From Candidatus Methylomirabilota bacterium (lineage in GTDB: Bacteria; Methylomirabilota; Methylomirabilia; Rokubacteriales; DASRDR01): DNA of 64,000 bases. This document shows, one piece after another, positions 611 to 9,937 of this stretch. Within the stretch, counting starts at the first letter, position 1. Each line of letters opens with the position of its first letter. The notes beneath the pieces were generated by a model. That model did no database searches. It saw only the letters and a program-made list of their open reading frames with translations, and was not told the DNA's origin. The translations under genes were made by a program, and so were the position numbers. Location: contig DASYQW010000065.1 of assembly GCA_036005065.1 (NCBI GenBank), positions 1 through 64,000 of the forward strand. The letters run 5' to 3'.

Positions 611-1699
611 TCATGGGGACGGAGAGAGCAGCCATCGCTGGAAGAAGGCGCAGCAGTCGGCGGCAACGGTATGCTGCACGTCGCGTCGGTCCACCCCCGG
701 CGGGTCGGTATAAATGGCTCGCAGGGTGCCATCCGGGTCGAAGCGGCTTTCCTGACCGGGGCGCAGGGCGGCGTGGAAGACAAAATGTCCGGTCGGAGGC
801 GGAAGAACCATGAGCTCGGATCCGGCAATGGAACGGGCGTAATGCAGGGCGTTGGTTTCGGGGACCAGCATCTCGTCATTCTTGCCAACCACGATGCGCA
901 GCGGACGGTGAATTCTGGCTAAGTCTTGCGGCTCGAATGCCCAGCCCAAGGAGGGCGCCATCAGGTAGAAGGCGCGGATGCGAGGGTCCGAGTGGTCGGC
1001 GGCGGCCGCCTTGAAGTCGGTGGTCTCCATCAAGCGTCGATAGATGGGGGAATCCACGGGGGGGAACTCGTCGGGCGGCGCCCAGCGAGGCCCGGGATTG
1101 GCAGTCCGCCGGTAGGCCGATGCCCGCCCGCCGGCAAGCCAGATACCGGTTCCTCCACCCAGCGAGAAGCCGGCCATGCCCACTTTCCGCGAATCGATAG
1201 ACCGCCGACCATCATCCGACTGAAGGAGGTAGGTGAGCACGAACCGCAGGTCCTCGGCCCGCTGCCAGTGGTCCATGTGGGGAGTCTTGAAGGTCGGATC
1301 GAGATGCTGCGGGGCAGCGACCGCAAATCCGCAGCGAACCAGGCGGTCGGCCAGCCAAGCGAGCGATTCGGGCCGGCTGGTGAGTCCATGGGAGAGAAGG
1401 ATCAGGGAGCGGCGACCGGGGACCGGTGACGCGTCCTCGACCCGCGCGGACTGTACGTAGAGGCTGTCCGGGATGGTGGCTTTCCCGCCCGGCGGCGCCG
1501 GGTACCACAGCTCGAACGTCAAGGTTCGCTGGCGGGCAGCGTCCGTTAGCTGAACGTGGCGGTGTCCGAGAACCGGGTCCCCGGCACGAAGCGGGACCGC
1601 CAGGACGGCCAGCAGAAGCAGCGTCAGAGTAGCGACAGGCGTCGACAACACGCTCGATGGTGGCCTGCTCGCCTGCCCGCGTCTTTTCCCGGCGGTCAC
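611..1699 (-). CDS. Secreted alpha/beta hydrolase (PAF-acetylhydrolase / dienelactone hydrolase-like)
   Basis: The 362-residue protein has a hydrophobic leader near residues 20-40 (LTLLLLAVLAVPLRA), which suggests export. It then has the alpha/beta hydrolase landmarks: LLSHGLTS oxyanion region, nucleophile elbow GFSLGGG near residue 178, acid in VGKNDEMLVP and histidine in PTGHFVFHA. The start is the GTG at 1699, whose last two bases form part of the TGA of the upstream ureohydrolase (GTGA overlap), implying translational coupling. The same frame stays open further upstream, but that part is only a shadow of the ureohydrolase. The substrate is unknown; an ester or lactone is inferred from the fold. 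Confidence 0.8.
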   Translation of the reverse strand: MTAGKRRGQASRPPSSVLSTPVATLTLLLLAVLAVPLRAGDPVLGHRHVQLTDAARQRTLTFELWYPAPPGGKATIPDSLYVQSARVEDASPVPGRRSLILLSHGLTSRPESLAWLADRLVRCGFAVAAPQHLDPTFKTPHMDHWQRAEDLRFVLTYLLQSDDGRRSIDSRKVGMAGFSLGGGTGIWLAGGRASAYRRTANPGPRWAPPDEFPPVDSPIYRRLMETTDFKAAAADHSDPRIRAFYLMAPSLGWAFEPQDLARIHRPLRIVVGKNDEMLVPETNALHYARSIAGSELMVLPPPTGHFVFHAALRPGQESRFDPDGTLRAIYTDPPGVDRRDVQHTVAADCCAFFQRWLLSPSP

Positions 1700-2640
1700 C
1701 GCCCCGCTTTGTTGGCGGCGAACACCGAGGCGATCTCGAACAGCATGTGGGCGGCCGTGATCGAGGTGATGTCGTTGGTATCGCACGGAGGCGAGACCTC
1801 GACGAGATCGGCGCCGACCAGGTTGAGCCCCACCAGGCCCCGGATGATCTGCATGACCTGCCAGTTGGTCAGCCCCCCGATCTCCGGGACCCCGGTGCCC
1901 GGCGCACAGGACGGATCCATCCCGTCGATGTCGAAGGTGAAGTAGAGCGGGGCGCCGCCGACGATCTCGCGGATCTCGGCGACCACGTCGTCCATCGGCC
2001 GCCGATGAATCTCGTGGGCCGGCATCATCCGGTAGTGCTCCGTCGACCACTGGAGGTCGTCGGGATAGAAGAGACTGCCGCGAATGCCGAGCTGGACGAC
2101 CTTCTCGGGGATGATCAGTCCCGCCTCGTGGGCCCGGCGGAACGTCGTGGCGTGGGTCAGCTTGTGGGCGAACTGGGTGTCGTGGGTATCGGTGTGGGCG
2201 TCGATGTGGACGATGGCCAGCGGCCCCTGATGCCGCGCGACCGCCCGCAGGATCGGGAACGTGATGCTGTGGTCTCCGCCGACGGCGATCGCCTTGCAGC
2301 CGTGGGCGTAGATGGCGTCGAACTCCTCGGTGATCCACTCGAACGTCCGCTCGATCTCGAACGGCGTGGTCCGCACGTCGCCGTAGTCCGCGATCCGGAT
2401 CTGCTTGTGGACGGTGAGGTCGTAGATCGGATGGTGGATGCGCACCTGACTGGAGGCGTTCCGGATGGCCCGGGGCGCCAGGCGCGCTCCGACGCGATAG
2501 CCGGCGGCGGTGTCGAACGGCACCCCGACGAAGGCCACGTCCAAATCCCGCGTCTCGCGAAGGTGGGGCAGGCGCATGAAGGTGGCGATGCCCGAGTAGC
2601 GCGGATACACCATGCTGTCGATCGGTTCCGGGTAGCTCAT
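1696..2640 (-). CDS. Ureohydrolase: agmatinase / guanidino-acid hydrolase family
   Basis: This 314-residue enzyme of the arginase/agmatinase superfamily hydrolyses a guanidino compound to urea plus an amine. All binuclear manganese motifs are visible: GGDHS near residue 122, DAHTDTH near 146 and FDIDGMDPS near 237, followed by the PGTGVPE substrate loop. The start has a strong ribosome site (GGAGGAG) just upstream. The long, tryptophan-containing N-terminus fits agmatinase, guanidinobutyrase or guanidinopropionase better than arginase; the exact substrate cannot be fixed from sequence. It is coupled to the secreted hydrolase gene. Confidence 0.9.
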   Translation of the reverse strand: MSYPEPIDSMVYPRYSGIATFMRLPHLRETRDLDVAFVGVPFDTAAGYRVGARLAPRAIRNASSQVRIHHPIYDLTVHKQIRIADYGDVRTTPFEIERTFEWITEEFDAIYAHGCKAIAVGGDHSITFPILRAVARHQGPLAIVHIDAHTDTHDTQFAHKLTHATTFRRAHEAGLIIPEKVVQLGIRGSLFYPDDLQWSTEHYRMMPAHEIHRRPMDDVVAEIREIVGGAPLYFTFDIDGMDPSCAPGTGVPEIGGLTNWQVMQIIRGLVGLNLVGADLVEVSPPCDTNDITSITAAHMLFEIASVFAANKAGR

Positions 2641-2706: not shown

Positions 2707-3546
2707 TCAGAGGCTCCAGCCGATGAGGAACGACGCACCGAGGTAGAAGAGCGCTTCGAGGTAGCCCACGCCGACGTTGGGGATCTCCTGCTCCACCACC
2801 TCCTGGTGGATGGTCACCCCGGGCAGCAGCACCCAGTCGGTCAGCTGGCGGGCGGCGAAGAGGAGGATCAGGCCGGCCAGGGCGTACCCGGTGGCCGCCG
2901 TGAAGGCCGGGGTCCAGCCTTCGAACGGCCCCGAGATCGACATGCGGAGCACGTTCGCCATGGCGACGAACACCCCGGCCACGCTCAGCGCGATCGCCTG
3001 GTTGCCCCGCCGGATCTCGGCCGCGAACTCGTAGCGCACGAGGCGGAGGAAGGCGGCCGCGGCCAGGGCCAGCAGCATCTGGGCGTACACCCAGAACACC
3101 GCGGCGGGCAGCAGGCCCCCCTCGTCGGCCAGGGCCCCCAGCACGAGGAGCGCGTTGGCGATGTGCGAGCCGGCCGCGACGATGCCGCAGGCGAGGTTGC
3201 GGCGCTCGAGGATCTCGCGGGCGAAGTCGAGCCCGTGAAAGAGGAGCCGCCGGTTGACGACGGCCGCCACGTTCAGGAGCAGGATGGCCAGGAGACCCCA
3301 GCCGGCCACGGCCAGCGCCTCGCGCAGGAGATCCCCGCGCGGCTGACCGGACAGGGGCGCGCCCATCACGATGAGGATGCCGAGGTAGTACGCCCCGAGC
3401 GGCACCGCGAAGGCCAGGTTGTCCCGGGCGGTGACCTCCCGGTCGACGCGCGCCGGCGGATTCGCCACGCCATAGGCGAGCTTCCCCACCCAGGCCAGCG
3501 CGAAGCTCAGCAGGAGATACGTGACGGCGTTGAGCCCGTAGGTCAT
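2707..3546 (-). CDS. DUF350 integral membrane protein (two tandem repeats)
   Basis: The 279-residue protein has about eight hydrophobic segments arranged as two similar halves, as in DUF350 (YjfL) proteins. Each half has an N/D-rich start and a Gly/Ala-rich helix. It is the last gene of a four-gene leftward operon; its ATG overlaps the TGA of the FemAB gene (ATGA). DUF350 proteins are known to co-occur with DUF4178 and polyamine genes, and both are in this operon. The molecular function is unknown; a membrane component acting with the polyamine and acyltransferase enzymes upstream is inferred. Confidence 0.85.
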   Translation of the reverse strand: MTYGLNAVTYLLLSFALAWVGKLAYGVANPPARVDREVTARDNLAFAVPLGAYYLGILIVMGAPLSGQPRGDLLREALAVAGWGLLAILLLNVAAVVNRRLLFHGLDFAREILERRNLACGIVAAGSHIANALLVLGALADEGGLLPAAVFWVYAQMLLALAAAAFLRLVRYEFAAEIRRGNQAIALSVAGVFVAMANVLRMSISGPFEGWTPAFTAATGYALAGLILLFAARQLTDWVLLPGVTIHQEVVEQEIPNVGVGYLEALFYLGASFLIGWSL

Positions 3547-4616
3547 GCCCCCTCCCCTCCCGCCGGCCGGCCGCCGACGGCCGCCGCCGGCCGGGCTGCC
3601 GGAGGCCGGCCGGCCGCCGGAGTTCGACGGAGGGCCCGGAGCGCCACGTCGGCGAGGCGGTCGTAGAACACGACGTCGCGCGATCCGATCCGCCGGACGT
3701 GGCGCCCGCCGAACTTCTCCTTGAAGCGGGAGAAGCGGTCGTAGGGATGGTCCGGACGGCCGGGCGCCACGTAGCCGTAGAAATCGTAGATGCGGTAGCC
3801 CTCGCGGGCCGCCTCCCGCAGGATGTGCCAGTGCAGCGCGTAGCTCGCCATCACGTCGGGGAAGAGCGGCAGGTGACCCCCGTAGAGGAACGTCACGGTC
3901 CCGCCATGGCGGACCGTCAGCGCCGCCGCCAGCGTCATCCCCTTGTAGCGGGCGAAGGCCAAGCGTCCCATCTCCGGGCACAGAGCCTGGACCAGGTTGA
4001 TGAAGAAGCTCTTGGGCTCGAGGAGGAAGCCGTGATAGCGCGCGGTCTCCGCCAGCACGCGGTAGAACTCGTGCACGTCGGCGGGGTCCGTCGAGCTCAC
4101 CACCTCGACGCCCCGGCGCCCGGCCAGCCGCGCGTTGTAGCGGCCCTTCGGCTTCATCCGCGCCAGCATCACGGCGTCGGGCCCCAGGTCGACCTCGAGC
4201 GTTTCCTCCGGCACGAGGTCGACCGGCGCCCGCGCCAGGCCGCCCAGGGGCGCCGGCACCGCTTCGAGCCGAGGCTCGACGCGCACCGCCACCGCCCGCT
4301 TGCCGGCTGCCGAGGCGAGGAGCGCCTCGAGGAGCGCCCGGAAGGCGGCGGCGGCGCCGGGCGTCTCCCAGTCGAGGACCGGCCCGTCCGGGACGGCGAC
4401 CAGGCCCCCCTCGGCGGGAGACGGGAACGCGTAGGCGACGGCCCCGCCGCGCAGCGTGGCCCCCTCGAAGATCCCGAGCCGCACGACCGTGTAGCCCTCG
4501 AGCTCCTTGAAGCGCGACCACGCCCAGGATTGCATGAAGCCGGCGCCGTGATGGTCCGCCGTCAGCGCGTCCCACGCGGCGCGATGGCGCGCCTCCAGAG
4601 GGGCGATCCGTCTCAT
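3543..4616 (-). CDS. FemAB/FmhB-like peptidyl (GNAT-fold) acyltransferase
   Basis: The 357-residue protein resembles lipid II:glycine glycyltransferase-type enzymes (FemX/FemAB). These use aminoacyl-tRNA to add residues to peptidoglycan stem peptides. Typical features are the N-terminal FMQSWAWSRFKE segment, MKPKGRYNARLAGRRGVEV in the middle, and the C-terminal YDFYGYVAPG...RFKEKFGG block. The start at 4616 overlaps the TGA of the upstream gene (ATGA). The C-terminal 30 residues are Pro/Ala/Gly-rich and probably disordered. In this operon it is the natural candidate to attach something, possibly a polyamine or amino acid, to a cell-envelope acceptor; that role is inference. Confidence 0.85.
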   Translation of the reverse strand: MRRIAPLEARHRAAWDALTADHHGAGFMQSWAWSRFKELEGYTVVRLGIFEGATLRGGAVAYAFPSPAEGGLVAVPDGPVLDWETPGAAAAFRALLEALLASAAGKRAVAVRVEPRLEAVPAPLGGLARAPVDLVPEETLEVDLGPDAVMLARMKPKGRYNARLAGRRGVEVVSSTDPADVHEFYRVLAETARYHGFLLEPKSFFINLVQALCPEMGRLAFARYKGMTLAAALTVRHGGTVTFLYGGHLPLFPDVMASYALHWHILREAAREGYRIYDFYGYVAPGRPDHPYDRFSRFKEKFGGRHVRRIGSRDVVFYDRLADVALRALRRTPAAGRPPAARPAAAVGGRPAGGEGA

Positions 4617-6784
4617 GAGCGCGGGGCCGGTGTCGCCGGAGGCGAGACGCCGAGCGCCGCGCCGTGACGCTCGACCCAGCGGGCGACGGGGCCGGCGAGG
4701 GACTGATCGCGGCCCTGGGTCAGCCGCTGGTTGAGGACGCCGAAGACGAAGCGGTCCTCGTCGGTCAGGGCGGTCGGCGGCGCGACCGGGCGCCGATGGA
4801 CGCTCCCGTCCGGGTGGACGAGGACGAGCGTCGGATCCTGGTGCGCGTACTGGGCCGGCTCGAGATAGATGCCCGGGGTGACGGGAACCCACCGGGGAGA
4901 CCGGGTCACCGCCGGCGCGGGCGGTCGCGTCACCCAGACGCCCTTGCCGGTCTCGACCGCCTTCCGGATGGCCTCGAGGCGCGCCAGCTCCGAGATGGCT
5001 TCGACCCCCTGCGGCAGCGGCGCCGCCCACCGCACCCACTCCACCCAGCGCCGGTGGTCCTGGATGGCCCGCTCCAGGACGCGGCCCTGGGCGTCGAGAT
5101 GCACCGGCGCCTCGGCCTCGAGCTCGCGCGGCGGCAGGAGGGCGAGGATCTCGCGGCCGTCGGCGTCGAGCACCCGCACGCGGCCCGGCTCGAGCAGGCA
5201 CTGGTACCCGGGCGGGGCCGTGGTGCAGGCGAGCGCGCCCGACTCGAGCACCTGGAGCTCCGGCGTGAGGGCGACGAGCGAGGGGATCGTCCGCCGGGTC
5301 CCCTGAGGATCGGCGAGGGCGAGGTTGCGCGCCGGATACTCGCGGCCCAGGGGATCGAAGACGCGCCGGGGCTGCCGCGTCGGCGCCCACGCCGGCTCCC
5401 CGAGCACGCTCGGGCGGAAGCCGTACGGGATGGGACGCAGGCCCGGAGCCGTGAAATTGAAGCCGTAGAAGGGAAGCGATTCTCCCGAGCTTCCCGACGA
5501 CGAAGAAGAGCTTCGGGTCCCCGACGAGCTGAAGCCTTTGGCGTACAGGTTGTCCGGGAAGAAGAGGTTCACCAGCAGGAGCACGAGGAGGTAGATGGCG
5601 AAGACGCGATAGGCGTGCTCGAGCAGGTCGCGCAGCGACGGCAGGCCGTCCCGGATTCGGGCGCGCAGGGCGCGAAGCTCGCGGACCCAGGCCCGGGGGA
5701 GCTCCCCCGCGCGGCGGAGCGCCGTGTCCACAAAGGCCCTCAGATCGAGCTCGCGGAGGAGGGTCTCGGCGTGTTGACTCCAGTCGAGGAGCGCTTCCCG
5801 GGTCTGGCCCCGCCGGGAGAGCGGCAGACACCGCAGGAGCTCCTCGAGCGAGCGGCGGCCGGCCGGCTCGTGGAGCCAGCGGGCGAATCCCTGCGCGGCC
5901 GTGAGCCGCGGCCCGGGCTCGCCGGGGCCCGGACGGAAGCGGAGGGCTCGCCAGGGGGCGGCCCAGGCGAGGGGCGCGGCGTTGTGGAGGTAGTAGAGGA
6001 GCTCGTCGGTTCGGTTCGGCGCCGCCTCCATGGCGCCCCGGGCGGCCGCCGGGACGCGCGTCGCCGCGAGGACGGTCTCCGCCGTGAGCTCGGTGCCCTC
6101 CGGCAGCCGGAGGCGGCGGAGCTCGGCCCGAGCGATGGACCGAGGCGAGGCGAAGAGGAAGCCCCAGCGCCCGTAGCCCTCCTCGAGGAAGGACGGGAGC
6201 GCGAGCGCGTAGGGCACCGCCCACAACCCGGCGGCGCCGAGCGTCGCCCCCACGCAGCCGAAGCCCTGCGGCGTCAGCTCGGGGGAGACCGCGTTCACAC
6301 CCAGGAGGCCGGCCGGCCGGAGGGCGGCCCGCGCCTTGCGGAACAACGGCACGCTGAACAGGGCCGCGCCGGCGACGTCGTCGGGGTACGTGAGGTCGTA
6401 GATCAGGACGTCGAAGCCTCGGGCGCGCCCCAGGAATTCCCGCGCGTCGAGGACGTGGACGCGCACGCGAGGGTCCCGGAAGGCGCCGCGATTCAGCTCG
6501 GCCAGAGGCCCCCGCCCGAGCCGGAGCACCTCGGGATCCCGGTCCACGACGTGAGCCTCTCGGACCTCGGCGACGCGAAGGACTTCGCGCAACGCCAGAC
6601 CATCGCCGCCGCCGAGGATCAGGACACGAAGCGCTCGCCGCGGCGCCCGGCTCGCCGCCAGGGCTATGGGAAGGAGCGCCAGCGGCTCGTGGTAGAGGCG
6701 CTCGTCCCGGGCGTCGAACTGGAGGTCACCGTTCAGGTAGAGCCGGAGATGGCCGCCGCTCGTGTCGAGGAAGACGTGGCTCAC
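4613..6784 (-). CDS. Spermidine synthase-like domain fused to a membrane-anchored C-terminal region
   Basis: The first 280 or so residues match polyamine aminopropyltransferases: YHEPLALLP, the SAM-binding loop LILGGGDGLALREVLR, VVDRDPEVL, and the acidic catalytic region IYDLTYPDDV. A hydrophobic segment (IYLLVLLLVNLFF) follows near residue 425, then a serine-only linker and about 270 residues of unknown domain. The GTG at 6784 is preferred because the next upstream ATG (6820) lies inside an interspersed repeat. Spermidine synthases are usually about 280 residues, so this is a fusion about 2.5 times longer. It probably makes or transfers an aminopropyl group at the membrane; the C-terminal role is unknown. 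Confidence 0.75.
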   Translation of the reverse strand: MSHVFLDTSGGHLRLYLNGDLQFDARDERLYHEPLALLPIALAASRAPRRALRVLILGGGDGLALREVLRVAEVREAHVVDRDPEVLRLGRGPLAELNRGAFRDPRVRVHVLDAREFLGRARGFDVLIYDLTYPDDVAGAALFSVPLFRKARAALRPAGLLGVNAVSPELTPQGFGCVGATLGAAGLWAVPYALALPSFLEEGYGRWGFLFASPRSIARAELRRLRLPEGTELTAETVLAATRVPAAARGAMEAAPNRTDELLYYLHNAAPLAWAAPWRALRFRPGPGEPGPRLTAAQGFARWLHEPAGRRSLEELLRCLPLSRRGQTREALLDWSQHAETLLRELDLRAFVDTALRRAGELPRAWVRELRALRARIRDGLPSLRDLLEHAYRVFAIYLLVLLLVNLFFPDNLYAKGFSSSGTRSSSSSSGSSGESLPFYGFNFTAPGLRPIPYGFRPSVLGEPAWAPTRQPRRVFDPLGREYPARNLALADPQGTRRTIPSLVALTPELQVLESGALACTTAPPGYQCLLEPGRVRVLDADGREILALLPPRELEAEAPVHLDAQGRVLERAIQDHRRWVEWVRWAAPLPQGVEAISELARLEAIRKAVETGKGVWVTRPPAPAVTRSPRWVPVTPGIYLEPAQYAHQDPTLVLVHPDGSVHRRPVAPPTALTDEDRFVFGVLNQRLTQGRDQSLAGPVARWVERHGAALGVSPPATPAPRS

Positions 6785-6789
6785 GGCGT

Positions 6790-6866
6790 CACCCTGGGAC
6801 GGGGCCGGGATCCGTCGCATCTCGGCGTCCTCGGCCCTCGCCGGCGCTCAACGCATGCGGCATACG
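6790..6866 (-). repeat. Interspersed repeat family C, copy 1
   Basis: On the minus strand the unit runs from the palindrome CGTATGCCGCATGCG through TTGAGCGCC and GAGGGCCGAGGACG. Related copies lie at 40627-40701, 50008-50069 and 55568-55643. This copy is more diverged than the others and sits between the DUF4178 gene and the spermidine-synthase-like gene, so the ATG at 6820 inside it is unlikely to be a true start. Confidence 0.7.
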
Positions 6867-6949
6867 CCTCGCGCCGGCTCGGGCCTGCGCCCTTGAGCTG
6901 CTCGGGCCGCAGCCCGGTCCGGGACCGGACGGCGCCGTCGAGGTCGGGT

Positions 6950-8086
6950 TCACGGACTCTCCGTGTCGCTGAACGTCAGCAGCACCGCCAGCGCGGCGCA
7001 CCCGAGGGCGCCGCCGAGCGCGGCCGGCCCGAGGGCCAGGGCGAGCTGGCCGAGGCTGTGGGGCATGGGGGCGAAGCGGAAATAGTGGAAGAGGCCGAGC
7101 ACCAGCAGCGGCGCGGCCACGGCGACGAATGCCGCGTAGAGCACGGGCAAGTGGCCCTCGGCCGCCTCCCGCCGCCCGCCGCCCCAGAGGACCACCGCCG
7201 GCGCGACGAGGAGAGCCAGGAAGCCCACCGCCCGCGTCTGCGGAGGATACCACCAGAAGACCACGGTCAGCAGCGCCGCCAGGAGGAGGCCGGTGGCGGC
7301 CGCGGCCGGCGCGCGGGCGAGCGCGAAGACCCAGCCCCCGAGCAGGGCGAGCGGCAGCGACGCGGAGATCGACTGGTCGAACGGGCGCCCGAGGAAGAAG
7401 GGCAGCACGTAGACGATCGGCAGGCACACGGCGGCGGCCAGGAAGGGGTTGAGGCGCCTCCGGAGTGCCGGCGTCTGGCGGGTGGCGGCCGGGCGGGCAT
7501 CGGCCCGCAGGCCGGATGCGACGAAGGGCGTGGCGCTCGCGGACGCGACTCCGGCGTCTCCCGACGCCGCCGGATCGAGTGTCACCTGGCCGGGCTCGAT
7601 GTAGCGGCCGTGATAGCAGTCGACGCGGCCGTCGCCCCAGCGCTCGACCGCGAGATTCGTGGCGCGCCCCTCGTCCCAGTAGTCCCACGTGGTCTTGGGG
7701 ACGCGCTGGCCGGGCTCGTCCTCGTAGGTGCCCTCGGTGGTGTCGACGTGGCGGTAGGTGCCGCCCGCGTACGTCACCGTCTCGGGCGGGGCGGCGTCGC
7801 GGTGGCCGGCGACCCACGCGGGCAGGGCCTCGCCCCCGGCGACCGCCACGGCGTCCGAGGAGATATGCCGCGTGAAGAACCACCGGGTGGGCACCCCCTC
7901 CTGCACCTCCTTCAGGAGGTAGGCCTCGGTGTCCCCGGTCTCGCAGCACCACTCGGTGACGCGGTATCCCTCGGGGCTCCAGTAGCTCGAGTGGTCGGTG
8001 ACCTCCCACTCGTGGCCTTCGAAGGAAAGCGTCTGGCCGACGCGAGGGTCGGCGGTCTCGAGCCCGGGGCGTTTCGGCGCGGCCAT
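6950..8086 (-). CDS. DUF4178 domain protein with C-terminal membrane region
   Basis: In the 378-residue protein the N-terminal 165 residues form a soluble DUF4178-like part (GQTLSFEGHEWEVTDHSSYW, EWCCETGDTEAYLL, TTWDYWDEG). A variable linker follows, then about six hydrophobic helices from residue 210 to the end. DUF4178 is a family of unknown function recurrently linked with DUF350 and polyamine genes. It is the first gene of the leftward operon, 165 bases before the spermidine-synthase-like fusion with a family C repeat between them. It diverges from the cupin gene across a 129-base promoter region. Confidence 0.8.
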   Translation of the reverse strand: MAAPKRPGLETADPRVGQTLSFEGHEWEVTDHSSYWSPEGYRVTEWCCETGDTEAYLLKEVQEGVPTRWFFTRHISSDAVAVAGGEALPAWVAGHRDAAPPETVTYAGGTYRHVDTTEGTYEDEPGQRVPKTTWDYWDEGRATNLAVERWGDGRVDCYHGRYIEPGQVTLDPAASGDAGVASASATPFVASGLRADARPAATRQTPALRRRLNPFLAAAVCLPIVYVLPFFLGRPFDQSISASLPLALLGGWVFALARAPAAAATGLLLAALLTVVFWWYPPQTRAVGFLALLVAPAVVLWGGGRREAAEGHLPVLYAAFVAVAAPLLVLGLFHYFRFAPMPHSLGQLALALGPAALGGALGCAALAVLLTFSDTESP

Positions 8087-8215: not shown

Positions 8216-9172
8216 ATGGCGAAGACCGTCGACGAGCTCCCGCTCCGGGCGCTCTTCGGCCTGGACACCGAGGCCGGCCGCCCGCCCACCGCGCTCTCCG
8301 CCAACGCCCGCTACCTTTCGTCACTCGACGGCTTCAACATCAAGCGTCCCTCGATCCCGCCTCGCGTCTTCCTGGACGAGCGCGACCGCGCGCTCGATCC
8401 GGCGACCGCGACCGGGCTGATCCCGCTCGACCTGAGCGGCGAGCTCGAGCTCGATGGCCCCGCCACCACGCCGCTGATCCTGGCGCGCTATGCGCGGATC
8501 CGGACCGGGGACAGCCTCACCACGGCCTTCACCGCCAGCACCGAGCTGGCGTATGTGATTCGCGGCTCGGGCACGACGACCTTCGGCGCGCGCGGTGGCG
8601 AGCCGATCGCCTGGCAGGACGGCGACGCCTTCGGGCTTCCCGGTGGCAGCACGGTCACCCACCGGGCGGCGACCGACGCGGTCCTGTGGGTCGTCACCAA
8701 CGAGCCCCAGCTCGCCTTCGAGCGCTGCCGGCCCCCGGCGCCGGGCGAGGGATCCATCGCGGCGGTCCACTACCCGGCGGCCGAGATCCGCCGGCAGCTC
8801 TACGCCGTCTACCAGGACCCCCGCGGGCAGGCCATGCCCGGCAAGTCGGTGAACTTCGGGAATGCCGCGCTGGAGGGCTCGCGGACGACGACGCCGTCCT
8901 TCACGCTGGCGATGAACTCGCTCCTGCCCGGGGAGTCCCAGCGCGCTCACCGCCACAACGCCGTGGCGGTCACGCTGGTCGTGGCCGGGACGGGCTGTTA
9001 CTCCCTGATCGACGGCGCCCGGGTCGACTGGGAGCCGAGCGCCGCGATGATCACGCCGCCGACGCTCCTGCACTCCCATCACAACGACGGCGACGCGCTG
9101 GCGCTCTTCCTCATCGTCCAGGACGGCGGCCTCTACTATCACTGCCGGACGATGGGTTTCAGCTTCACGTAG
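8216..9172 (+). CDS. Two-cupin protein, gentisate dioxygenase-like
   Basis: The 318-residue protein has two cupin domains. The N-terminal one contains VIRGSGTTTFG and WQDGDAFGLPGG. The C-terminal one carries likely metal ligands in SQRAHRHNAVAVTLVVAGTG and the terminal TLLHSHHNDGD segment. This bicupin layout is typical of gentisate and hydroxynaphthoate 1,2-dioxygenases, but proteins of this length are also found with unassigned substrates. The ATG follows a good GAGGAGG site. It is followed 27 bases later by a methyltransferase gene, so the two probably form one transcript. A ring-cleaving or oxidising role is inference. Confidence 0.75.
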   Translation: MAKTVDELPLRALFGLDTEAGRPPTALSANARYLSSLDGFNIKRPSIPPRVFLDERDRALDPATATGLIPLDLSGELELDGPATTPLILARYARIRTGDSLTTAFTASTELAYVIRGSGTTTFGARGGEPIAWQDGDAFGLPGGSTVTHRAATDAVLWVVTNEPQLAFERCRPPAPGEGSIAAVHYPAAEIRRQLYAVYQDPRGQAMPGKSVNFGNAALEGSRTTTPSFTLAMNSLLPGESQRAHRHNAVAVTLVVAGTGCYSLIDGARVDWEPSAAMITPPTLLHSHHNDGDALALFLIVQDGGLYYHCRTMGFSFT

Positions 9173-9199
9173 CCCGTCGGCGACTCCCACCCGGCCGCC

Positions 9200-9937
9200 A
9201 TGGCCGAGTACGACGCCTCCACCTACGGCGAGCGCATCGCCGACGTGTACGACGAGTCGCCGCGGATGCCGCCCAATACCGATGCCGCGGTGGCGTTCCT
9301 GGCCGGTATCGCCGGGCGGGGTCCCGCCCTCGAGCTCGGGATCGGCACCGGCCGCATCGCCCTGCCGCTGGCCGCCAGGGGCCTCGAGGTGCACGGCGTC
9401 GATGCCTCGCCGGCCATGGTGGCGAAGCTCCGGGCCAAGCCCGGCAGCGAGCGGGTGCCGGTGACGATGGGGAACTTCGCCGACCTGGCGCTGGGCCGCC
9501 GCTTCTCGCTGGTCTACGTCGTCTTCAACACCTTCTTCGGCCTTCTCGCCCAGGACGATCAGGTGCGCTGCTTCGCCCGGGTGGCCGAGCACCTCGCGGA
9601 GAACGGCGTGTTCGCGCTGGAGGCCTTCGTGCCCGATCTCGGGCGCTTCGACCGCGGTCAGCGGGTGGGGGCGATCGTGGTCGAGCCGGAGGTCGTGCAT
9701 CTCGAGGTGGCCCTCCACGACCCCGTCCGGCAGCTCGTCCGCGCGCAGAACGTGGTGATCACGCCGCACGGCGCCCGGCTCTATCCGGTGTGGCTGCGCT
9801 ATGCCTGGCCGTCAGAGCTGGATCTGATGGCCCGGCTCGCCGGGCTCCGGCTGCGCGAGCGGTGGGGCGGCTTCTCCCGCGAGCCGTTTACCGGAGAGAG
9901 CGCGGCCCACGTCTCGGTCTACGAGCGGGCCGGCTGA
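9200..9937 (+). CDS. Class I SAM-dependent methyltransferase
   Basis: This 245-residue Rossmann-fold methyltransferase has motif [20 protein letters not shown], motif [11 protein letters not shown], and the post-motif [12 protein letters not shown]. It belongs to the broad methyltransferase type 25/11 group, with an N-terminal [16 protein letters not shown] that is common in unassigned members. The substrate is unknown. It lies downstream of the cupin gene on the same strand and its last 19 bases overlap, tail to tail, the end of the cyclase/ATPase gene on the other strand. Confidence 0.85.

Follow-up and report, generated by a model that had tools for sequence, protein, structure and literature searches.

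A four-gene operon in Methylomirabilota that combines DUF4178 and DUF350 membrane proteins with a SpeE-like fusion and a FemAB transferase: a candidate membrane-tethered two-enzyme module

Four genes on the minus strand of the window (the whole 64,000-nucleotide stretch of DNA that was analysed) form an operon that is transcribed from position 8086 to position 2707 in the order DUF4178, SpeE-like aminopropyltransferase fusion, FemAB-family transferase and DUF350 (Table 1). The Pfam scores of all four families far exceed the cut-off, and the genes, coordinates and order agree with those given in an earlier note on this DNA. The operon may, we tentatively propose from the sequence, encode a membrane-tethered two-enzyme module for aminopropyl and aminoacyl transfer onto a non-standard acceptor; its product is probably a modification linked to the envelope and neither ordinary spermidine nor peptidoglycan bridges. 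The operon bears on how DUF350 and DUF4178, two unexplained protein families, are connected with polyamine enzymes. It is a lean, four-gene version of the known DUF350/DUF4178/SpeE clusters to which a second transferase has been added, and would be a compact test case for the role of an aminopropyltransferase at the membrane; the changed acceptor sites in both of its enzymes yield specific predictions.

Table 1. Features of the operon and its downstream neighbour in the window
Feature	Position	Strand	Size, match or basis
DUF4178 protein	6950..8086	-	378 aa; Pfam PF13785, 4.5e-16
SpeE-like aminopropyltransferase fusion	4613..6784 (GTG start 6784)	-	723 aa; PF01564 (Spermine_synth), 4.4e-23
ATGA stop/start overlap, SpeE-FemAB	4613..4616	-	sequence
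FemAB-family double-GNAT transferase	3543..4616	-	357 aa; PF02388, 2.9e-27
ATGA stop/start overlap, FemAB-DUF350	3543..3546	-	sequence
DUF350 membrane protein	2707..3546	-	279 aa; PF03994, 6.5e-43
Agmatinase-type ureohydrolase	1696..2640	-	TIGR01230 above cut-off; 67 bp downstream of operon

Among 95 surveyed genomes of the phylum Methylomirabilota, close relatives of the operon DUF350 gene are present only in G006 (same class as the window genome; locus L006) and G064 (same order; locus L007) besides the window genome itself. Both carry the identical four-gene order with coupled junctions, and since the whole order is kept in two other genomes, the operon is not a chance arrangement. Both of the ATGA overlaps claimed by the earlier note are present; the FemAB-DUF350 junction is ATGA in L006 and L007 as well, and the SpeE-FemAB junction is ATGA in L006 and a one-base TGATG overlap in L007. 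The DUF4178 and SpeE genes are separated by 165 bp in the window and overlap in both relatives. GTG 6784 is the preferred SpeE start because the G006 orthologue begins at the matching residue. The genes that flank the operon are different in all three loci, and the unit is therefore the four genes.

A FemAB profile run against the 95 genomes gave E values below 1e-200 in exactly the same three, so that the FemAB orthologue and this type of DUF350 co-occur in 3 of 95 genomes; the next matches are at 1e-65 or weaker, and their surroundings in six genomes contain no DUF350, DUF4178 or SpeE match. The earlier note had made the recurrence of FemAB with DUF350 and DUF4178 its own test, and the association is found in all three of the genomes that have this DUF350 type. 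The DUF350, FemAB and SpeE-domain proteins are 58-73% identical in pairwise comparisons among the three genomes, with dN ∼0.2-0.33, dS ∼0.66-1.4 (synonymous sites are near saturation) and dN/dS ∼0.2-0.4. All three are under purifying selection, the SpeE domain about as strongly as FemAB.

In G006, a frame break interrupts the SpeE fusion gene just past PSFLEEGYG (L006 ∼3500-3512, near 3507), through either assembly error or decay, and the G064 DUF350 protein (L007 2712-3485) is shorter than the other two by ∼22 residues in the region of the second TM helix. Thus, parts of the operon may be in decay, or there may be errors in the assemblies.

A contig scan with the DUF350 alignment, which rests on two short peptide patterns, again returned only the G006 and G064 relatives, and viral contigs gave no match for the operon. 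Plasmids gave one distant DUF350 with no FemAB nearby, seven FemAB matches (E up to 1e-8) and 11 SpeE matches; the best of the FemAB matches (H2), the one of the seven that was examined, has ABC-transporter and hypothetical genes as neighbors and none of the other operon genes, and FemAB is in none of the seven SpeE records examined. Among the papers searched, none contains both DUF350 and FemAB.

The agmatinase-type gene downstream of the operon was considered as a fifth member and rejected: neither relative has it next to the operon, there is no ureohydrolase anywhere in G006, and the window genome has 16 matches to this family. These 16 Arginase-family matches are an unusual expansion, with five in tandem on contig C23 (10292-15179) and five on C202 (21-1871, 7758-10533).

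DUF350 genes of any kind were found in 12 of the 95 genomes. Three of them (G005, G062 and G063) have a 7TM-type SpeE beside DUF350 and DUF4178. An SPFH protein was identified in G062 and an amine oxidase in G063, and both loci show similar ORFs; G057 has DUF350 and DUF4178 with a GSP_synth ATP-grasp gene, and in G019 the DUF350 context includes PspA and CesT/Tir. In four others (G010, G014, G043 and G056), the stretches examined gave no match to FemAB, SpeE or DUF4178. An annotated plasmid carries the order SPFH-DUF4178-DUF4178-DUF350-SpeE-FAD oxidoreductase-SpeD, and the contexts in the phylum and on this plasmid agree with the published groups (PMC11237479). In the window, DUF350, DUF4178 and SpeE lie in one operon and the SpeE is of the cluster lineage; no PspA, CesT/Tir or SPFH gene is among the Pfam-named flanking genes of the three loci, within the short reach of the 9-kb contigs on which the two relatives lie. 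The polyamine-cluster context that the earlier note gave to DUF350 and DUF4178 is thus real, by the published groups (PMC11237479) and by the SpeE tree described below. Its suggestion that FemAB fills the position of an ATP-grasp ligase is only partly right: an ATP-grasp gene does occur with DUF4178 and DUF350 in G057, but none was seen in the sister 7TM-SpeE clusters, which carry an amine oxidase. Because the ATP-grasp gene belongs to a different DUF350 group from the SpeE clusters (PMC11237479), FemAB is an addition to the SpeE lineage and not a proven replacement of ATP-grasp.

The SpeE fusion consists of a SpeE domain (residues 1-225), a helical region, a TM helix (391-409) followed by a conserved FPDNxYAK motif, a Ser-rich linker and a ∼290-residue C-terminal domain that has no Pfam match and would be extracytoplasmic given a cytoplasmic catalytic domain. 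The 7TM part of the cluster SpeE proteins is absent. Small TM proteins with Gly/Ser-rich tails adjoin DUF350 and 7TM-SpeE genes elsewhere (L025 9420-9649; L022 ∼8970-9886), and the TM helix and Ser-rich linker of the window protein resemble them in appearance. The best PDB match of the fusion is the Thermus thermophilus aminopropyltransferase (Foldseek to 1uir, 3.9e-15), and only aminopropyltransferases are among the fold matches listed; the structure model used is of low confidence (mean pLDDT 59.7). The protein falls below the equivalog-level NCBIfam cut-offs, PRK03612 (196.6 bits against 472) and all others. In a phylogenetic tree, the three operon SpeE domains form one clade (100/99) on a long stem branch, sister to the cluster 7TM-SpeE proteins (99/94) and separate from the housekeeping enzymes. 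The operon SpeE is not a housekeeping enzyme but a derived lineage, sister to the 7TM-SpeE of known SPFH/DUF4178/DUF350 clusters; each of the three genomes has SpeD next to a canonical SpeE at another locus.

The aminopropyltransferase active site named in the earlier note is in part preserved. Donor-site and general-base residues are kept in all three proteins, namely YH(E/Q), GGG[DE]G (GGGDG), VDxD, DA and the first gate-loop Asp, whose human equivalent, Asp173, is the base that deprotonates putrescine (PMC12812037). On the other hand, the amine pocket is altered: the second gate-loop carboxylate (human Asp176) is changed from D/E to Y/F and the Gln of QATSP to Asn in all three, at positions where D/E and Q are kept in the Thermus enzyme, the cluster SpeE and the housekeeping SpeE. 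Standard polyamine synthesis by the operon SpeE is doubtful because of these two substitutions. The pocket also has an insertion, in which PSF(G)WGF gains LEEGY-like residues.

FemX and FemA are among the PDB matches of the operon FemAB protein, and its F298-K299 correspond to F304-K305 of FemX, which are essential there; Arg211 and Tyr215 of FemX bind UDP-MurNAc-pentapeptide (PMC4964394). The equivalent of Arg211 is Glu200, a Glu in all three orthologs and R/K in every comparator including FemX, and that of Tyr215 is Phe204. An acidic residue at the Arg211 position would be a better fit for a cationic acceptor than for a diphosphate, and the change from Arg to Glu makes a peptidoglycan precursor less likely as the acceptor. 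A FemAB fold need not imply the use of aminoacyl-tRNA, as the donor of HfsK is not established (PMC5362036). The altered pockets of SpeE and FemAB together point to non-standard acceptors for both.

The DUF4178 protein, orthologs of which are present in L006 and L007, has an N-terminal beta-rich domain (residues ∼15-165) and six TM helices predicted by hydropathy; its AlphaFold model has a pLDDT of ∼90 in the beta domain and low values in the TM part. The DUF350 protein is two tandem DUF350 repeats (two PF03994 stretches) with seven TM segments by simple hydropathy. Comparison with solved structures found no relative of the DUF4178 protein by fold (E up to 0.001) or by sequence, and none of the DUF350 protein by sequence.

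In the proposed module, the TM helix would anchor the SpeE-like domain to the cytoplasmic membrane on its inner side, and the domain most likely still uses decarboxylated AdoMet, presumably supplied by the housekeeping SpeD, whose gene is elsewhere in the genome. The aminopropyl group would go to an acceptor other than a free diamine, for example a membrane-linked or peptidyl amine, and the multi-TM DUF350 protein, with its two repeats, and the DUF4178-TM protein may serve as a membrane platform. The identities of donor and acceptor, the order of the steps and the envelope destination are those that we infer; attachment to an envelope acceptor is plausible. In its fullest form, the proposal would be an undescribed envelope modification, in which a membrane-linked acceptor receives, one after the other, an aminopropyl group from decarboxylated AdoMet and an amino acid from aminoacyl-tRNA through a DUF350/DUF4178 complex devoted to this task; so complete a scheme is unlikely.

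The main rival is that the SpeE domain has no catalytic activity and acts as a sensor or scaffold, binding decarboxylated AdoMet, MTA or a polyamine, and that FemAB is the sole working enzyme. A SpeE without the second gate-loop carboxylate could just as well be dead, and the Gln to Asn change, the pocket insertion and the long stem branch all fit that idea; however, the three proteins do not vary in their donor-site residues or general-base Asp and the domain is conserved as much as FemAB, and we consider inactivity somewhat unlikely. If the domain is active, it might instead produce a free polyamine (spermidine or a related one) at the membrane, as the parent 7TM-SpeE clusters may, with FemAB acylating that free polyamine. 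Its sister relationship to the cluster SpeE and the acidic FemAB residue, suited to a cationic acceptor, would agree with this, but the second amine-pocket carboxylate is gone and each genome already has a housekeeping SpeD-SpeE pair, which leave it distinctly unlikely.

It seems very unlikely that FemAB makes ordinary peptidoglycan bridges and is merely co-expressed with a membrane polyamine cluster. Its clear FemABX membership and its catalytic F-K pair are what such an enzyme should have, but the residues at the Arg211 and Tyr215 positions of the UDP-MurNAc-pentapeptide site (PMC4964394) are Glu and Phe, and within the phylum the ortholog is present only alongside the operon type of DUF350. 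Of these readings, the two-enzyme module with non-standard acceptors is preferred.

The DUF350(8TM)-DUF4178-SpeE(7TM)-lipoprotein operons with PspA-CesT/Tir (the second group of PMC11237479) share with the window operon a two-repeat DUF350, DUF4178 and a membrane-associated SpeE. The window operon differs in that no PspA, CesT/Tir or separate lipoprotein gene was seen, its DUF4178 protein has six TM helices, its SpeE has lost the 7TM domain, gained a C-terminal TM helix and domain and has an altered amine pocket, and FemAB has been added. The SPFH-DUF4178x2-DUF350(short)-7TM SpeE-amine oxidase-(SpeD) clusters (L021, L022 and the Novosphingobium locus L045) contain the closest SpeE relatives by the tree and have DUF350 and DUF4178 neighbors in common with it; they carry SPFH, amine oxidase and, in L045, also SpeD where the window has FemAB, and unlike the window SpeE their second gate-loop Asp is intact. 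The DUF4178-DUF350-GSP_synth cluster of G057 (L020) shares DUF350, DUF4178 and an amide-bond-forming enzyme family, but its ATP-grasp ligase stands where the window has FemAB and there is no SpeE match in the stretch examined. Finally, the FemX/FemABX peptidoglycan aminoacyl transferases have the FemAB family and the F-K catalytic pair in common with the operon protein, which departs from them in its Glu for Arg211 and Phe for Tyr215 at the UDP-MurNAc site.
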